Shown here: positions 19,662 to 56,478 of the stretch, one piece after another
Layout: the number at the start of each line of letters is the position of its first letter
Position numbering within the stretch: the stretch's first letter is position 1
Origin: Betaproteobacteria bacterium
GTDB taxonomy: Bacteria; Pseudomonadota; Gammaproteobacteria; Burkholderiales; JAEUOS01
DNA: 64,000 nucleotides
Reading direction: 5' to 3'
Assembly: GCA_028292405.1 (NCBI GenBank)
Contig: JAQGMJ010000040.1
Span: 1-64,000 of the forward strand
Position numbers and translations under genes: made by a program
The notes under the pieces: model-generated
Seen by the model: only the letters and a program-made list of their open reading frames with translations
The model's database searches: none
What the model was told of the DNA's origin: nothing

Positions 19662-19865
19662 TATGATTTTCGGCGTTCTATAGGCGTTGCATGGACGGGT
19701 AAAACCGCATCCATGGTCGCCGTAACGCGGCGGTGCGACTGCCGGTGCCGGGGCAGTTTTCCGGTCGGTGCCGTCCTACACCGGCGTGGCAGTTACGCCG
19801 GGCGATACAATAGCGGACACAGCCTGGGCCACGCTCCTTTTATTCACACGGACAAGACTCAAGAC

Positions 19866-20351
19866 TCATGGTGCTGCGCCTGTTTCGCGGACTTGCCGCG
19901 CGCGCGGGTCGTGCCGCCCCACGTTCAGGGCGAAGGTCGAGGGCTCGCCCTGCGCGGGACTGAGCATGCCGCGCAGCGTGTACCGGTTATCGATGTCCCC
20001 CGGTTGCAGAAAAACGCTGACCGAGGCATTCGGCGCGTAGCAGTGGCCGGCCATCACGTAGCAGTCGTCGGCCCAGGCCAGGGTGCCGGCCAGCTGGCGA
20101 AAGCGGTCGTCGCCGTATTCGAAGCGGCCGCCGGTGAGGATGGACGTGGCAAACAGCAGGCGCAGGCGGAAGTCGTGCTTTTCGCCGTCGCCGGCCTGGC
20201 CGTAGCCGCTGATGCGCAACTGGCCGGTCTGGCGCAGCACGCGGAAGTTCGCTGTCAGCGGAAACACCGCGCCGCCGTAGACGCAACTGCCGGTGCCGAC
20301 GTAGCGGCCGCTTTCCATCAAGGGCAGGCTCAACACCTTGCTTGGGTCCAT
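19866..20351 (-). CDS. Hypothetical protein
   Basis: ORF from MDPSKVLSLPLMESG; fills the gap before ribBA; no family recognised. Confidence 0.5.
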   Translation of the reverse strand: MDPSKVLSLPLMESGRYVGTGSCVYGGAVFPLTANFRVLRQTGQLRISGYGQAGDGEKHDFRLRLLFATSILTGGRFEYGDDRFRQLAGTLAWADDCYVMAGHCYAPNASVSVFLQPGDIDNRYTLRGMLSPAQGEPSTFALNVGRHDPRARQVRETGAAP

Positions 20352-47175: not shown

Positions 47176-48153
47176 ATGCGCGCCCCCCCTCTGGATTTGC
47201 GGTTGCTCGAAGCCTTCGAGGCGATCTACGTCGAGAAGAGCCTGACCAATGCCGCGCTCAAGCTGTCGATGACCCAGCCGGCGGTAAGCCAGGCGCTGAC
47301 CAAGATGCGCGCGCATTTCGGCGACCCGTTGTTCGTGCGCACGGCCGCCGGCATGGAGCCGACGCCGCGCGCGAAAGAGTTGTTCGTATCGGTCGGCGTG
47401 ATCCTGCGCGAGGCACGCGTCGCGCTGGTCGCGCGGCCGGTATTCGACCCTGTCAATTCGGGCCGCGAATTCGTCATCGCCACCACCGACCTGGGCGCCG
47501 CCGCGCTGCTGCCGCCGCTGATCGAGGCGGTGCGCCAGCGCGCGCCGCAAACGCGCATCCTTTCGGTCAACGCCGATGCGCATGACCTGAATGAAGAACT
47601 GGGCGCCGGCGACATCGCCCTGGCGATCGGTAATTTTCCCAACCTTCAATCCGGCATCTATTGCCAGGGCCTGTACCAGGAAACCTATGTGCTGCTGGCG
47701 CATCGCGAGCGCGTCGCGAAGAGCGGCGGCATCAGCCTGGAGCAGTTTTGCCAGGCGCGCCACGTGCTCGTCACCGCCGGCAATTCCGGACATTTCCACG
47801 GCGAGGTCGAAAAGCACCTCCGCGCGCTGATCCGCCCCGAATTGATCGTCGCCACCGTCTCCAGTTTCCTGGTCGCGCCGCTGGTGGCGCGCGACAATGA
47901 TCTGCTGGTAATCGTGCCGCAGCGTGTGGCCTCGATTTTCGCCGCGATGATGAGCCTGGAAGAGTTGCCGCTGCCGATCGAGCTGCCCGCCTACCCGATC
48001 ACCCAGTACTGGCACGCGCGTTACCACAACGACCCCGGTACGGTGTGGATGCGCCGCCTGGTGCACGAGCTGTATTCGCAAAGCGGCCCCGGCGGCGCCG
48101 ACAGCGCGGTGACCTTGCTGGCGCCCGATCCAGCGGCTAGTGTGGCGGAGTAG
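47176..48153 (+). CDS. LysR family transcriptional regulator
   Basis: LDLRLLEAFEAIYVEKSLTNAALKLSMTQPAVSQALTKMRAHFGDPLFVRT. Confidence 0.96.
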   Translation: MRAPPLDLRLLEAFEAIYVEKSLTNAALKLSMTQPAVSQALTKMRAHFGDPLFVRTAAGMEPTPRAKELFVSVGVILREARVALVARPVFDPVNSGREFVIATTDLGAAALLPPLIEAVRQRAPQTRILSVNADAHDLNEELGAGDIALAIGNFPNLQSGIYCQGLYQETYVLLAHRERVAKSGGISLEQFCQARHVLVTAGNSGHFHGEVEKHLRALIRPELIVATVSSFLVAPLVARDNDLLVIVPQRVASIFAAMMSLEELPLPIELPAYPITQYWHARYHNDPGTVWMRRLVHELYSQSGPGGADSAVTLLAPDPAASVAE

Positions 48154-48160
48154 CAGGGCG

Positions 48161-49036
48161 ATGCACATCTCCACTGCGCCCGCCGCATCGTATCTGCAGC
48201 CTACCGCGCTGAGCGATGCGCTCGCCGCGCTGGCCGATGCGCCTTATGTCGTTCTTGCGGGTGGCACCGACTTCTACCCGGGCCGCGTCGGCAAGCCGGT
48301 GGATGACGTGGCGTTGCTCGACATCACCCGCGTGGCCGATCTCTCCGGTATCAGCCGCACGGCGGAAGGCTGGCGCATCGGCGCCACCACAACGTGGAGC
48401 GAAGTGATCGAGGCGCCGCTGCCCGCGGTATTCGACGGCCTGAAGGCCGCGGCGCGGGCAGTCGGCGGCGCGCAAATCCAGAACAGCGGCACGGTTGCCG
48501 GCAATCTGTGCAACGCTTCGCCGGCGGCCGATGGCGTGCCGCCACTGCTCGCGCTGGGCGCCGAAGTGGAGCTGGCCTCCACCCTGGGTACGCGGCGCCT
48601 GCCGCTCTCACAATTCATCCTCGGCAATCGCAAGACCGCGCGCGCCGCGCATGAGCTGGTCATCGCCGTCCTGGTGCCGGCCTGGCCGGAAGCGGCGCGC
48701 AGCAGCTTCATCAAGCTCGGTACCCGCAAATACCTGGTGATCTCCATCGTCATGGGCTCCGCCGTGGTGGCGCTCGACAAGGCCGGGCGCATTGCCCGTT
48801 GCGGCCTCGCGATCGGGGCATGTTCCGCTGCCGCCCTGAGTTTTGACGCGCTGGCGCGCAAGCTGGTCGGCCACACGCCGGCAGAAGCGTTCAAGCAACT
48901 GGCGGCGGAAGATCTCCAGGGACTGGCGCCGATCAACGACGTGCGCGGCAGCGCCGCTTATCGCATCGAAGCGGCCTTCACCCTGGCCGGGCAGGTGCTG
49001 GCGCGCGCCTTCGAGCAGGCAGAGGGAAAGGCATGA
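48161..49036 (+). CDS. FAD-binding subunit of a xanthine-dehydrogenase-family molybdenum hydroxylase
   Basis: VLAGGTDFYPG; GGAQIQNSGTVAGNLCNASPAADG; overlaps the Mo/Fe-S subunit gene. Confidence 0.94.
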   Translation: MHISTAPAASYLQPTALSDALAALADAPYVVLAGGTDFYPGRVGKPVDDVALLDITRVADLSGISRTAEGWRIGATTTWSEVIEAPLPAVFDGLKAAARAVGGAQIQNSGTVAGNLCNASPAADGVPPLLALGAEVELASTLGTRRLPLSQFILGNRKTARAAHELVIAVLVPAWPEAARSSFIKLGTRKYLVISIVMGSAVVALDKAGRIARCGLAIGACSAAALSFDALARKLVGHTPAEAFKQLAAEDLQGLAPINDVRGSAAYRIEAAFTLAGQVLARAFEQAEGKA

Positions 49037-51837
49037 ATCACCCTCTCGAACCCGGCCTCAAATCCCTGGCCGAAGCCGGCCTCGGGTCGATCGCACTCAC
49101 GGTCAACGGCAGGCCGGCCTTGCTGAACTGCGCGCCGCCCACGCGCCTGGCCCATGCCTTGCGTGACGAACTTGGCCTCACCGGCACCAAGATCGGCTGC
49201 GACGCGGGCGACTGCGGTGCCTGCACCGTGCTGCTCGACGGCAAGCAAGTGTGTTCCTGCATCACCGCGGTGGCGCAATGCGCCGGCCGCGAAGTCACCA
49301 CGATCGAAGGCCTGGCGCAGGACGGCAAACTCAACCGCCTGCAGCAGGCCTTTCTCAAGTACGGCGCGGCGCAATGCGGCATCTGTACGCCCGGCATGCT
49401 GATGGCGGCAAGCGACCTGCTGGCGGGCAATGCGGCGCCCACGCAAGCCGAGGTCGAAGACGCGCTCGGCGGCGTGCTGTGCCGCTGCACTGGTTATCAA
49501 AAAATCGTCGAATCGGTGCTGGCCGTTGCCCACGATGACCTGACGCTGGAGCCGCCCACCGCCGGCCGCGCCGTCGGCAGCCGCTTGGCGCGCCTGGACG
49601 GCGTGAGCAAGCTGACCGGGGCGGAGAAATACGGCGCCGACGAATATCCCGCCGGCGCACTCTGGCTGCGAGTGGTCCGCTCGCCGCACGCGCGCGCCGG
49701 TTTCACGCTCGGTGATCTCGACGCTTTCCGTCGCAAGTACCCGCAGATCGAGGGCTTCATCACCGCGGCAGACGTGCCGGAGAACAGCTTTTGCGTCTTT
49801 CCGGTGCCGAAAGACCAGCCGGTACTCGCTGACGGCCATGTGCGTTTTCGCGGCGAGGCGGTGCTGGGACTGCTCGGCGAGCGCGATGCCATCATTGCGA
49901 TTCCCGAAGCCGAAATGCCGATCACCTGGCAGCCGCGCCACGCGCTGACCGAGCCTGAAGAAGCACTCACCGCCACCGGCGACCTGATCCACGACTTTGC
50001 ACCGGAGAACGTGCTGTGCCGCGGCCGCGTGGTCAAGGGCGACGTGCAGGCAGCCTTTCCGATGGCGGCGCATGTCGTGGAAGAAAACTTCCGTACCAGC
50101 TACGTCGAGCACGCCTATATCGAGCCCGAGGCTGGTTACGCCGAGGTGGTGAGCCAGGGCGGACAGGAGCGGCTGCGGCTTTTCGTCTGCACCCAGACGC
50201 CCTATATGGACAAGGAAGAAGTCGCGCGCGTGCTCAAGTTGCCGCATGACCGCGTGCGCGTGGTGCCCTCGGCTATCGGTGGCGGCTTCGGCGGCAAGCT
50301 GGACATTTCGGTGCAGCCCTTGCTGGCGGTGGCGGCGTGGAAGCTCAAGCGCCCGGTGCGCATCGTCTACACCAGGCCGGAGTCGATGGCCTCGACGCCC
50401 AAGCGCCACCCCTCGCGCATTCGCGTACGCCTGGGTTGCGACAAGGAGGGCAAGCTGACGGCGATGGATTTTGCCGGCGACTTCAACACCGGCGCCTACG
50501 CCTCCTGGGGCAGCACGGTGGCCAATCGCGTGCCGATTCACGCCAGCGGTCCTTACGCGCTGCCCAATGTGCGCGCGCTGACCCGCGCGGTCTACACCAA
50601 CAACGCCATTGCCGGCGCCTTCCGCGGCTTCGGTGTGCCGCAGGCCTGCATCGCCACCGAGACCTTGATGGACGAGCTGGCGGAGAAATGCGGCATCGAT
50701 GCGCTGGAGTTCCGTTACCGCAACGCCATTCGCGCCGGCGATGCCACCGCCTGCGGCCAGGTGCTGCAGGCCAGCGCCGGCCTTGACCAGTGCCTGGACG
50801 CGCTGCGTCCCGCCTGGGCCGGCGCAAAGGAGGCCAGCGCCGCCTTCAACGGTCAGGCAATCAGGAGTGGTTCGCGCAAGCGCCGCGGCGCGGGGCTGGC
50901 CTGCATGTGGTACGGCATCGGCAACACGGTGATCGCCAATCCCTCGACCATGACCATCGGCCTGCGCGCCAGCGGCCGCGTCGTGCTGTACAACGGCGCG
51001 CAGGAAATCGGCCAGGGCACCTACACCATCATGCCGCAGATCGCCGCCGACGCGCTCGGCGTGCCGGTGAGCCTGATCGACCAGGTGCATAGCGATACCG
51101 ACCTCACCGAAGACGCCGGCAAGAGCTCGGCTTCGCGCCAGACTTTTGTGTCCGGCAACGCAGCCAAGTTTGCCGCCGAAGACCTGCGCCGGCAACTTCT
51201 GCAACTGGCCGGCACAGCGGCCGATGCTACCCTGCGCCTGGAAGGCACGGCACTGATCGCCGGCACAAGCCGTATCGATCTGCAAGGTTTGACGCCGATC
51301 AACGAACGCGGCGACCTCGCGCTGGGCAGCGGCTACTTCAACCCGCCCACCGTGCCGCTGGACGCCGACGGCCAGGGCGTGCCTTACGCCACCTTCGCCT
51401 TTGCCGCGCAACTGGCCGAGGTCGAAGTAGACCTGGATTACGGCACGGTGAAGGTGCTGCATATCCACGCCGCGCACGATGTCGGCCGTGCCGTCAACCC
51501 GACCCAGGTCGAAGGGCAGATCCACGGCGGCATCGCCCAAGGCCTGGGGCTGGCGCTGATGGAGGAGTACATCAGCGGCAAGACCGACAACCTGCACGAC
51601 TACCTGATTCCCACTGTCGGCGACATGCCGCGCATCACCACCTACCTGATCGAGGACGCTGAACCTCTCGGTCCCTATGGTGCCAAAGGGGTGGGCGAAC
51701 CCGCACTGGTGCCGACGGCGCCGGCGATCTATAGTGCGATCCGTGCCGCCACCGGCGTGCGCGTCAGGCTTGCCCCGGCCACGCCGGACCGCCTGAAGGC
51801 AGCGCTCAAGGCCCATGAGGCCGGACAGCGCCTCTGA
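49033..51837 (+). CDS. Xanthine-dehydrogenase-family hydroxylase, fused [2Fe-2S]x2 + molybdopterin subunit (candidate nicotinate dehydrogenase)
   Basis: GCDAGDCGACTVLLDGKQVCSC, CGICTPGM, CRCTGYQKI; Mo domain IGGGFGGK, GAFRGFGVPQA, KGVGEPALVPTAPAI. Confidence 0.94.
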   Translation: MNHPLEPGLKSLAEAGLGSIALTVNGRPALLNCAPPTRLAHALRDELGLTGTKIGCDAGDCGACTVLLDGKQVCSCITAVAQCAGREVTTIEGLAQDGKLNRLQQAFLKYGAAQCGICTPGMLMAASDLLAGNAAPTQAEVEDALGGVLCRCTGYQKIVESVLAVAHDDLTLEPPTAGRAVGSRLARLDGVSKLTGAEKYGADEYPAGALWLRVVRSPHARAGFTLGDLDAFRRKYPQIEGFITAADVPENSFCVFPVPKDQPVLADGHVRFRGEAVLGLLGERDAIIAIPEAEMPITWQPRHALTEPEEALTATGDLIHDFAPENVLCRGRVVKGDVQAAFPMAAHVVEENFRTSYVEHAYIEPEAGYAEVVSQGGQERLRLFVCTQTPYMDKEEVARVLKLPHDRVRVVPSAIGGGFGGKLDISVQPLLAVAAWKLKRPVRIVYTRPESMASTPKRHPSRIRVRLGCDKEGKLTAMDFAGDFNTGAYASWGSTVANRVPIHASGPYALPNVRALTRAVYTNNAIAGAFRGFGVPQACIATETLMDELAEKCGIDALEFRYRNAIRAGDATACGQVLQASAGLDQCLDALRPAWAGAKEASAAFNGQAIRSGSRKRRGAGLACMWYGIGNTVIANPSTMTIGLRASGRVVLYNGAQEIGQGTYTIMPQIAADALGVPVSLIDQVHSDTDLTEDAGKSSASRQTFVSGNAAKFAAEDLRRQLLQLAGTAADATLRLEGTALIAGTSRIDLQGLTPINERGDLALGSGYFNPPTVPLDADGQGVPYATFAFAAQLAEVEVDLDYGTVKVLHIHAAHDVGRAVNPTQVEGQIHGGIAQGLGLALMEEYISGKTDNLHDYLIPTVGDMPRITTYLIEDAEPLGPYGAKGVGEPALVPTAPAIYSAIRAATGVRVRLAPATPDRLKAALKAHEAGQRL

Positions 51838-52653: not shown

Positions 52654-54198
52654 ATGAGCACAACCCACGCCGACCCCACCACCGGCATCGAAGCGGACGC
52701 GCCTGAAAAGGGCGGCGCGAAGATCGTCTGCAATGCCTGCCCGGTGTTGTGCAACATCACCGCCGGGCGCAGCGGCGCGTGCGATCGCTATGCCAACGTG
52801 GACGGCGTGCTGGCGCGGGTCGACCCGCTGGTGCTGACGCGGCGCAGTACCGCAACTGAACTGGTGCCACTGGGCGAAGCCGTCAGCATGGGCGGCGCCT
52901 GGGATGCCGAGGCAAAGGAAGTGCCGGCCGAGCAAGTGAGAGCGGACACGACGGACGAATACTTTGTTACCGGCGTCGGCGCCACCACCACTTATCCGGA
53001 CTACAAGCCGGCGCCCTTCATCGTCTCGACCCGTCATGCCGGCGTCGATACCGTGACGGTAGTCACCGAGGGCGTGTTCAGCTATTGCAGCTTCAAGGTA
53101 AAGATCGACACCGATCGCTACATCGGCCCGGAACAGGCGGCTGTGCGCTACGACGGCGAGATCGTCGGTCACGTCACCACCGCCGAGTACGGCTCGCAGA
53201 TGCTGTCTCTCGGCGGGGTGCATCACCTCACCGGCGGTTCCAAGCGCGAAGGCCGCGTCACCTGCCAGATGATGATGGACCTGGGCAACAAAAAGCCGGT
53301 CGAGCTTGAGATCGAAAGCGGCGCCAAGTTGATCGTCGCTGCCGGCAAGCCGCCCGTGATCAATGGCGTGCCGGAAAAGCGCATGCGCGTGGGTTGCGGT
53401 TCGGCCACCATCGGCATTTTCGCGCCGCAATGGAAAGACCATGTGGACGAGGTGATCGTGGTCGATGACCACATCACCGGCGTGCTCACCGAGCACCAAG
53501 CCGGCAAGTACATCGAAATGAAGTCCGCCGGCATCAGGATCAAGGGCAAGAAGTCCACCCCCGGGCGGTATTTCCAGGTCGCCAATCCCGGCCTGGGCTG
53601 GGGCGGTACCGATATCACCGACCCGCTTTCCATCGTCGAGAAGGTGGACGAGAAAGCTGCGTGGCCGGGATTGCGCGTGCTGTTCGTCTCCACCACCGGC
53701 GAAGACGCCGCTTATTTCGTGCTCGACGAGCAGCTCAAGTTCGTGGCACAGCCGATGCCCGCGCCGGTGCAGAAAGTAGTCGACCGCATCGGCGAGAATT
53801 GCGAGCCGGCGCTGTGCACCGTACTGTTCTTAGGCGGTGCCGGCGGCAGCCTGCGCGCCGGGGTGACGGAGAACCCGATCCTGCTGACGCGCTCGATCAA
53901 GAAGCTGATCACCAATGTCACCTGCGGCGGTGCTCCGGCCTATGTGTGGCCGGGCGGCGGCATCATGGTGATGGTCGACGTCAGCCGGATGCCGGACAAC
54001 TCTTTTGGTTATGTGCCGACGCCGGCGATTGTCGCGCCGATCGAGTTCACCATGCAGGCGGCCGACTATGGGGCGCTGGGCGGCTACGTGAATTGCGTGC
54101 GGCCGCTCGCCGAGGTGCTGGGCGGGCAAAAACTCGCGCTACTCACTCAAGCGCCGCAAAATCCCTGGCCGGTCGGTACGCAACCGGTGGTGGGCTAA
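52654..54198 (+). CDS. 6-hydroxynicotinate reductase-like Fe-S/flavoprotein
   Basis: N-terminal Cys cluster CNACPVLCNITAGRSGACDRY; GVGATTTYPDYKPAPF; followed by UPF0280 and AA_synth genes. Family call from memory of this signature, not a search. Confidence 0.75.
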   Translation: MSTTHADPTTGIEADAPEKGGAKIVCNACPVLCNITAGRSGACDRYANVDGVLARVDPLVLTRRSTATELVPLGEAVSMGGAWDAEAKEVPAEQVRADTTDEYFVTGVGATTTYPDYKPAPFIVSTRHAGVDTVTVVTEGVFSYCSFKVKIDTDRYIGPEQAAVRYDGEIVGHVTTAEYGSQMLSLGGVHHLTGGSKREGRVTCQMMMDLGNKKPVELEIESGAKLIVAAGKPPVINGVPEKRMRVGCGSATIGIFAPQWKDHVDEVIVVDDHITGVLTEHQAGKYIEMKSAGIRIKGKKSTPGRYFQVANPGLGWGGTDITDPLSIVEKVDEKAAWPGLRVLFVSTTGEDAAYFVLDEQLKFVAQPMPAPVQKVVDRIGENCEPALCTVLFLGGAGGSLRAGVTENPILLTRSIKKLITNVTCGGAPAYVWPGGGIMVMVDVSRMPDNSFGYVPTPAIVAPIEFTMQAADYGALGGYVNCVRPLAEVLGGQKLALLTQAPQNPWPVGTQPVVG

Positions 54199-54201
54199 GA
54201 C

Positions 54202-55077
54202 ATGTCCCTCGCGCCCGTTCGCCAAGCGCTCGAGGGTGGGCGCGAGCATTGGCAGCACGGCCCGATCGACCTGGTGATCGAGGCGCGCGGCGAGGCCGCC
54301 GCGCTGGCGCGGGCTTATACCGGCGCGTGGGCGCGTTTCCAGAACGTGCTGGCCGAACTGGTATTCGAATTGCCGTTGTTGCGCTTGGCCGTAGAAGAGG
54401 CCGGCGCGGTACGTGGCTCGGTGGCGCGGCGCATGGTGGACGCGGCCTTGCCCTATGCGCCGCGCTTCATCACGCCGATGGCAGCCGTCGCCGGCAGCGT
54501 GGCCGAGGAGATTCTGGGTTTCTTCGCCGCCGAAGCCGGCGTGACCCGCGCCTTCGTCAATAACGGCGGCGATATCGCGTTGCATCTGGGCGGTGGAGAG
54601 AGCTTTACCGCCGGCCTGGTGGCGGACGCTTATGCGCCGGTGCTCAATGGCCAGCTGCGCATCGAGGCGGAGAGCGGCATTCGCGGAATAGCCACCAGCG
54701 GCTGGCGCGGCCGCAGCTTCAGCCTGGGCATTGCCGATTGTGTCACGGTGTTGGCGCGCGGCGCGGCTGCGGCCGATGCGGCGGCGACGATGATTGCCAA
54801 CGCGGTCGATGCCGATCATCCTGCCATCGCACGCGCGCCGGCGAACAGGCTGAAAGACGATACGGATCTGGGAGCCCGCCTGGTGACGGTGAGTGTCGGT
54901 ACTGTGCCCGCATCGCTGCGCCGCGCCGCGCTCGATGCAGGAGCGCGGGCCGCAAACGAATTCATGCGTCGTGGCCTGATCATTGGCGCAGCGCTTGCTT
55001 TGCAAGGTGAGTGGCGCAGTGTCGGCGAAGTACAGGCCACGCTGCAAGCGAATGCGCAGCAGCGCCTGGCAGCCTGA
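54202..55077 (+). CDS. UPF0280 family protein (ApbE-superfamily-like)
   Basis: FVNNGGDIALHL; GIATSGWRGRSFSLGIADCVTVLA. Confidence 0.85.
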   Translation: MSLAPVRQALEGGREHWQHGPIDLVIEARGEAAALARAYTGAWARFQNVLAELVFELPLLRLAVEEAGAVRGSVARRMVDAALPYAPRFITPMAAVAGSVAEEILGFFAAEAGVTRAFVNNGGDIALHLGGGESFTAGLVADAYAPVLNGQLRIEAESGIRGIATSGWRGRSFSLGIADCVTVLARGAAAADAAATMIANAVDADHPAIARAPANRLKDDTDLGARLVTVSVGTVPASLRRAALDAGARAANEFMRRGLIIGAALALQGEWRSVGEVQATLQANAQQRLAA

Positions 55078-55097
55078 GAGTCAACGGAGAGAATCGA

Positions 55098-55730
55098 ATG
55101 GCCAGCAAGAGTGCAGCCAAAACCGCAAGCAAGCGCAGCCCCATGAAGGCGATGCAGATCGACGTGCGCAAGATCGTCACCTTCATCGACGAGGCCTTTC
55201 ACGAAGGCGGCCCGGTGGCGAAAAAGCCCTACAAGCGCGGCGCCATCGCCGCCGTTGTGGCCAACCCTTACGCGGGTCGCTATGTGCAGGACATCACGCC
55301 GATGATGGATGCCTTGACGCCCCTCGGTTACGAACTGGCCGAGCGGCTGATCAAGGCGCTGGGCGGGCCGAAGGAAATCGAAAGCTACGGCAAGGCGGTG
55401 ATCGTCGGGGTCAACGGTGAATCGGAGCATGCGGCGCTGTGGCACGTGCCGGGCGGCTACGGCATGCGCGAGATGCTGGAGAACTCCAAGGCCATCGTGC
55501 CCTCGGCAATCAAGGTGGCGGCCGCCGGCGGGGCCATCGACGTGCCGCTGCATCACCGCACCGCCGCGTATGTGCGCAGCCACTTCGATGCCATCGAAAT
55601 GCGCGTGCCGGACAGCCCGCGTCCTGACGAGATCGTGTTCATCATCGCCATGGGTACGGGGCCGCGGGTGCACGAGCGGGTCGGCGGCTTGCGCGCCAGT
55701 GAAATTTCGAAGTACGACGGGCAGCGCTGA
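55098..55730 (+). CDS. Amino acid synthesis family protein (DUF1185/AA_synth)
   Basis: RKIVTFIDEAFHEGG..KPYKRGAIAAVVANPYAGRYVQD; HVPGGYGMREMLENSKAIVPSAIKVAAAGGAIDVPLHHR. Confidence 0.85.
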   Translation: MASKSAAKTASKRSPMKAMQIDVRKIVTFIDEAFHEGGPVAKKPYKRGAIAAVVANPYAGRYVQDITPMMDALTPLGYELAERLIKALGGPKEIESYGKAVIVGVNGESEHAALWHVPGGYGMREMLENSKAIVPSAIKVAAAGGAIDVPLHHRTAAYVRSHFDAIEMRVPDSPRPDEIVFIIAMGTGPRVHERVGGLRASEISKYDGQR

Positions 55731-55749: not shown

Positions 55750-56478
55750 ATGCAAAACATCGAACGTCGGAAATTTGTGCAAGCTCTCGGCGGTGCGCTG
55801 GCGCTCGGCGCGATGGGCGGCCTGGCGCGCAATGCTTTCGCCGCGGCGATCAAGCCTGGCGATGCCGATGTGTTCCTGGTGATCGACATGCAGAACTGCT
55901 TCATTCCCGGTGGCTCGCTGGCGGTGAAGGAGGGCGACGCCATCGTGCCGCTGATCAACAAGATCGCCAAGTCCTTCAAGCACGTGGTGCTGACGCACGA
56001 CTGGCATACCCCGGACCACATCTCCTTCGCCTCGCAGCACGCCGGCAAAAAGCCCTTCAAGGCGATCAAGGTGGCCTATGGCACCCAGGTGCTGTGGCCG
56101 GACCATTGCGTGCAGGGCACCGAAGGCGCTGCTCTTGCCAAGGACCTGAGCATCCCGCAGGCCGAACTGATCCTGCGCAAGGGCTACCGCAAGGACGTGG
56201 ACAGTTATTCCGCTTTTCTCGAGGCGGACAAGAAGACCAGCACCGGCCTGTCCGGCTATCTCAAGCAGCGTGGTTTCAAGCGGGTGTTCCTGGCCGGGCT
56301 GGCGACGGACTTCTGCGTTGCCTGGAGCGCCATCGATGCGCGCAAGCAGGGCTTCGAGGCATTCGTGATCGACGATGCCTGCCGCGGCATCGACGCCAAC
56401 GGCTCGCTCGCCGCGGCGTGGAAGGACATGACGCACGCCGGTGTGAAAAAGATCAGTTCGGCCGACATCGCTGCCTAA
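55750..56478 (+). CDS. Nicotinamidase (PncA/isochorismatase family) with predicted Tat signal peptide
   Basis: Twin-arginine IERRKFVQALGGALALGAMGGLARNAFA; FLVIDMQNCFIPGG, THDWHTPDH, LWPDHCVQGTEGA, LRKGYRKDVDSYSAF, AGLATDFCVAWSA. Confidence 0.9.
   Translation: MQNIERRKFVQALGGALALGAMGGLARNAFAAAIKPGDADVFLVIDMQNCFIPGGSLAVKEGDAIVPLINKIAKSFKHVVLTHDWHTPDHISFASQHAGKKPFKAIKVAYGTQVLWPDHCVQGTEGAALAKDLSIPQAELILRKGYRKDVDSYSAFLEADKKTSTGLSGYLKQRGFKRVFLAGLATDFCVAWSAIDARKQGFEAFVIDDACRGIDANGSLAAAWKDMTHAGVKKISSADIAA

Follow-up and report, generated by a model that had tools for sequence, protein, structure and literature searches.

The locus considered here raises the question of whether the protein encoded directly downstream of a 6-hydroxynicotinate-reductase-like protein (Hnr) is the dedicated enzyme that attaches a flavin to it, as an initial annotation of this DNA proposed. 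Both genes lie on the forward strand of the window, the whole 64,000-nucleotide stretch that was analysed. Hnr, an Fe-S protein of 514 amino acids, is encoded at 52654-54198, and an ApbE-like UPF0280/COG2122 protein of the NF003322 subfamily, with 291 amino acids, is encoded at 54202-55077. The initial annotation placed both reading frames correctly, but its spacing of 4 bp needs a small correction, since 3 bp lie between the Hnr stop codon (TAA, 54196-54198) and the UPF0280 ATG at 54202.

The genes that surround this pair are consistent with nicotinate breakdown. They comprise a LysR regulator, a xanthine-dehydrogenase-type FAD subunit and a fused 2Fe-2S/molybdopterin subunit (48140-51837, forward strand, recognized by domain-model matches), an SDR, Hnr, UPF0280 and an AA_synth gene (55011-55730, forward strand; PF06684, 240 bits) whose true start is probably the ATG near 55098. 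Further neighbours are an isochorismatase-family (nicotinamidase-like) protein and an ABC transporter, with HyuA/HyuB-like hydantoinase-type genes just downstream. Judged from this context, the xanthine-dehydrogenase-type subunits are a probable nicotinate dehydrogenase. The isochorismatase-family protein (window positions 55753-56478) has an N-terminal RRKF...A segment which resembles a Tat signal, so that it is possibly an exported nicotinamidase. On some plasmids (L139, 10028-16900; L140, 3792-11605; compare window positions 52654-55730), hnr, UPF0280 and a small gene that follows them directly adjoin two hydantoinase/acetophenone-carboxylase-type genes; a possible role for the latter two genes is an ATP-dependent ring opening that replaces enamidase. 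A nicotinate cluster that includes two proteins of unknown function was already noted in 2012 (PMC3511419).

In profile searches Hnr receives no name from either Pfam or NCBIfam, and its identification comes from homologues: plasmid proteins named "6-hydroxynicotinate reductase" are 58-66% identical to the window protein, and the identity across 80 GTDB loci is 63-77%. The 6-hydroxynicotinate reductase of Eubacterium barkeri reportedly contains a covalent flavin as well as Fe-S clusters, and by analogy with that enzyme we infer that the window Hnr may also carry a covalent flavin. The series Cys26-x2-Cys29-x3-Cys33-x9-Cys43 (52729-52782, forward strand), each Cys of which is found in 98 of 99 homologues, is a probable Fe-S ligand motif. 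The Hnr family has only 7 invariant or near-invariant Cys residues, plus Cys424 in 85/99, which is fewer than the 12 usually required for the Fe-S inventory reported for the E. barkeri enzyme. The fold of Hnr is weakly modelled (pLDDT 69.9) and produced no PDB match, and a GCV_T_C domain, for which the best E-value of 0.0018 fell under the cut-off, was taken as a chance match. Homology between Hnr and DUF39/HcyBio, which might have defined a common type of UPF0280 substrate, was not found in a low-power comparison (a probability of 0.1 in hhalign against one DUF39 sequence, no phmmer match, and BLAST E-values above 3 only). In one genome hnr is split over two frames (G016:C1:2969823-2971255) and in another it contains an in-frame TGA (G139:C1:1610120-1611532), both of which we attribute to errors or decay.

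The assignment of 54202-55077 to UPF0280 is secure, with a score of 380.2 bits for the NCBIfam model NF003322 against a cut-off of 290. The resemblance to ApbE that the initial annotation had seen in the strings NNGGDIAL and GIATSG is borne out, the protein being an ApbE homologue at both the profile and the fold level. An hhalign comparison with 30 ApbE sequences gives a probability of 94.8 (E 5e-8); Hnr, the negative control, gives 0.3. A Foldseek search with the AlphaFold model (pLDDT 93.8) returns 2o34 (DVU1097) as the top match (E 1.2e-10), followed only by FmnB/ApbE entries down to E ~0.03, among them FmnB at E 2.8e-5. The Pfam ApbE model, PF02424, scores the window protein below its cut-off (12.7 bits, against a gathering score of 25.6), and the same model by itself picks up the UPF0280 protein of genome G159 (7.6e-4). 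We take UPF0280 to be the family also called COG2122, with which the match to 2o34/DVU1097 and the methanogen control matches are consistent.

The conserved segments of UPF0280 coincide with parts of the ApbE active site. NNGGDIAL (residues 120-127; 54559-54582, forward strand) is aligned to the ApbE GG[DE] motif, and N120, G122, G123 and D124 are found in 101/101 homologues and N121 in 99/101. GIATSG (residues 162-167, 54685-54702) is the first part of GIATSGWRGRS (residues 162-172; 54685-54717, forward strand), in which A164, T165, S166, G167, G170, R171 and S172 are invariant among the 101 homologues and Ser166 is aligned by hhalign to Ser241 of V. cholerae ApbE. In ADAAAT (residues 191-196; 54772-54789, forward strand), where A191, D192 and A195 are present in all 101, Asp192 is aligned in the same way to Asp285. 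The NGGD, the catalytic Ser and Asp of the ApbE Ser-His-Asp set (Ser166 and Asp192, 101/101) and the DxxxT spacing are retained, but the HIIDP segment, which carries the general-base His (His257 in V. cholerae), is deleted in the UPF0280 alignment, and no conserved His occurs there among the 101 homologues. In V. cholerae ApbE, where His257 is the general base, the activity of the H257G variant was reported to be decreased, not abolished (PMC12052999). Arg171 of UPF0280 stands at Ser+5, the spacing of Ser257 and Arg262 in FmnB (PMC12052999), and may by its position correspond to Arg262.

This type of UPF0280 is associated with hnr, and for this pair the initial annotation had suggested a genome-wide check of co-occurrence. 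Of 200 Pseudomonadota genomes, which like the 80 GTDB loci below are a sample with one genome per species and give counts for that sample only, 15 contain NF003322 together with Hnr and the remaining 185 contain neither one; counted by genome, the hypergeometric probability of this agreement is 7e-23, and counted by genus it is 3e-11. Of 80 GTDB loci fetched by means of Hnr, 78 hold UPF0280, in 75 cases no more than 152 bp downstream of Hnr; at one of the other two the contig ends within the start of UPF0280, and in the remaining genome UPF0280 lies on another contig. The phylum containing SAR324 has both genes in 14 of 52 genomes, and its unpaired copies of Hnr or NF003322 (G280, G294, G295) are each cut by a contig end; G298, from the same phylum, has a different UPF0280 subfamily and no Hnr. 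All 26 plasmid records with Hnr have UPF0280 beside hnr. A 27th plasmid with UPF0280 (Hydrogenophaga BPS33) was considered as a counter-example and is accounted for by truncation, since the last hnr codons are preserved between an IS1071 copy and UPF0280. At this site (NZ_CP044550.1, L141, ~19853-20000) IS1071 severed the hnr-UPF0280 operon and left the 3' end of hnr, and the segment is repeated, giving four UPF0280 places. AA_synth, which served as a control, accompanies Hnr in 14 of these 15 Pseudomonadota genomes but turns up in 13 others that lack Hnr. Exclusivity is therefore a property of UPF0280, which stays beside hnr where the rest of the cluster changes. The distances within the two families are correlated with r 0.88, a value that co-inheritance as an operon would also give. 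Hnr-type UPF0280 is tied to Hnr itself, by a pairing far beyond chance.

Because this pairing is exclusive and the genes are nearly always adjacent, UPF0280 is very likely a cytosolic maturation factor dedicated to Hnr. For the nature of the maturation step we lean, by a modest degree, towards a variant ApbE-type FMN transfer, in which UPF0280 would take FAD and Mg2+ and would attach FMN to a Ser or Thr of Hnr through a phosphoester. Seven of the 15 genomes with Hnr yield no separate ApbE with PF02424; one of the seven is the window genome, G000, which is 93% complete and could be missing an ApbE by chance. In G159 the single weak PF02424 match is UPF0280 itself. If an enzyme of the ApbE superfamily flavinylates Hnr in these seven genomes, UPF0280 is therefore the sole candidate. 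The proposal of a dedicated flavin transferase thus draws support from the ApbE homology, the strict partnership with Hnr and the lack of any other ApbE in 7/15, but is weakened by the missing general-base His segment. In a search of open-licence papers, none was found that connects UPF0280 with Hnr or with the flavinylation of Hnr.

If FMN is transferred to Hnr, the acceptor site would differ from that of standard ApbE targets. The canonical flavinylation motif Dxx[ST]GA[ST] occurs in 0 of 99 Hnr sequences. The possible site which the initial annotation offered while observing that it lacks the canonical form, GVGATT (residues 107-112; 52972-52989, forward strand), is not conserved as such. 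The family version of this region is mostly [GA][VI]G[SA][SGT]TTYPDYK in the 99 sequences; Thr111 is variable and is Thr in few homologues, and it was rejected as the attachment site for that reason, whereas Thr112 and Thr113 (52987-52992) are invariant in 99/99. The nearest match of the family to [ST]-G-A-[ST] is T193-G-G-S196 (53230-53241, forward strand), a candidate only, in which Thr193 is found in 99/99 and position 196 is Ser or Thr in 94/99. Judged by conservation, Thr112/Thr113 and Ser196 are the candidate flavin sites.

The other explanations must be weighed against what is known of UPF0280 outside the Hnr genomes. The initial annotation regarded the family as having no assigned function, which is wrong: COG2122 is genetically required, together with DUF39 and a NIL/ferredoxin protein, for homocysteine synthesis in Desulfovibrio (D. 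vulgaris; PMC5764234), and a methanogen relative, MA1715, has been described as a sulfur-trafficking protein (PMC12068725). UPF0280 could accordingly mature Hnr by delivering sulfur, by building or inserting an Fe-S cluster or by assisting folding, as has been proposed for MA1715, in which case a covalent flavin on Hnr would form autocatalytically or would not exist. Both partner systems are Fe-S-linked and Hnr has conserved Cys residues, and G298, of the SAR324 phylum, has genes for DUF39, a ferredoxin-like protein and COG2122 one after another (G298:C102, L150, ~64000-66500), which is the known homocysteine-type set. Against these points, DUF39/HcyBio is absent from all 200 Pseudomonadota genomes, and the active sites differ, with C[SG]SS...GHS in the homocysteine type (C[SG]SS..GHS in G298 UPF0280 and DVU1097, the two sequences compared) and ATSGW.GRS in the Hnr type. 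Hnr-type UPF0280 also has no conserved Cys, the best alignment column reaching 73/101 and the only Cys of the window protein, at position 180, not being conserved. The lack of a conserved Cys together with the different active-site motif makes a role as persulfide carrier unlikely for Hnr-type UPF0280, and maturation of Hnr without flavin transfer is in our judgement an unlikely account overall.

It is also rather improbable that UPF0280 catalyses a step of nicotinate breakdown on a small molecule, such as the reduced ring product, and that it is paired with Hnr only through their common pathway. Such a role would suit a catabolic operon that contains a Mo-hydroxylase and AA_synth, nicotinamidase-like and transporter genes, and two proteins of unknown function have indeed been counted in the cluster (PMC3511419); yet the homology with the ApbE superfamily and the role of COG2122 beside an unrelated enzyme of a different pathway favour protein maturation, the neighbouring AA_synth does not share the exclusivity of UPF0280, and UPF0280 keeps its place by hnr when the cluster changes. 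The ApbE/Ftp proteins include Mg2+-dependent FAD pyrophosphatases (PMC4767422), and hydrolysis may be favoured where the general-base His has been lost, so that UPF0280 might instead remove or recycle flavin, or hydrolyse FAD in support of Hnr like the treponemal Ftp FAD pyrophosphatase. Since hydrolysis by itself would not explain why UPF0280 is so strictly paired with a single enzyme, we consider this reading very improbable.

Should FMN transfer by UPF0280 prove to be the maturation step, a more general idea may be entertained, which we regard as speculative and doubtful: UPF0280/COG2122 would be a second class of protein-flavin transferase, without the general-base His of ApbE, that acts at a non-ApbE motif on cytosolic Fe-S-linked reductive enzymes, namely Hnr and, through a different subfamily, the DUF39 enzyme that forms homocysteine in anaerobes. 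We know of no covalent flavin in the homocysteine synthesis served by other UPF0280 subfamilies, and the DUF39 enzyme would then be an unrecognized covalent flavoprotein. If UPF0280 does transfer FMN to Hnr, a widespread family that is still named UPF0280 would gain a testable biochemical function, the ApbE-like transferases would acquire a member whose active site is altered and whose target is of a new type, and Hnr would offer a tractable aerobic partner system in which to settle the role of COG2122 in homocysteine synthesis.

The components of this system can be compared with three known ones. The E. barkeri 6-hydroxynicotinate reductase shares 42% identity with a proteobacterial homologue from a similar cluster (PMC3511419). 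Hnr differs from the E. barkeri enzyme in its conserved Cys, of which the family described here has only 7 to 8. With the ApbE/FmnB/Ftp proteins (PF02424), one of which, a cytosolic ApbE, is indispensable for the flavinylation of a soluble fumarate reductase (PMC12052999), UPF0280 shares the fold, the NGGD region, the DxxxT spacing and the catalytic Ser and Asp; unlike them, it scores below the PF02424 cut-off, lacks HIIDP with its His and is not aligned locally in its N-terminal half, and its putative target, Hnr, is without the standard ApbE target motif. The COG2122/UPF0280 proteins of Desulfovibrio and methanogens belong to the same family (phmmer 8.7e-7; NCBIfam PRK04334 models) and, like the Hnr type, work with Fe-S-linked partner proteins, but their partner is DUF39 with NIL/ferredoxin, whereas the partner of Hnr-type UPF0280 is Hnr.
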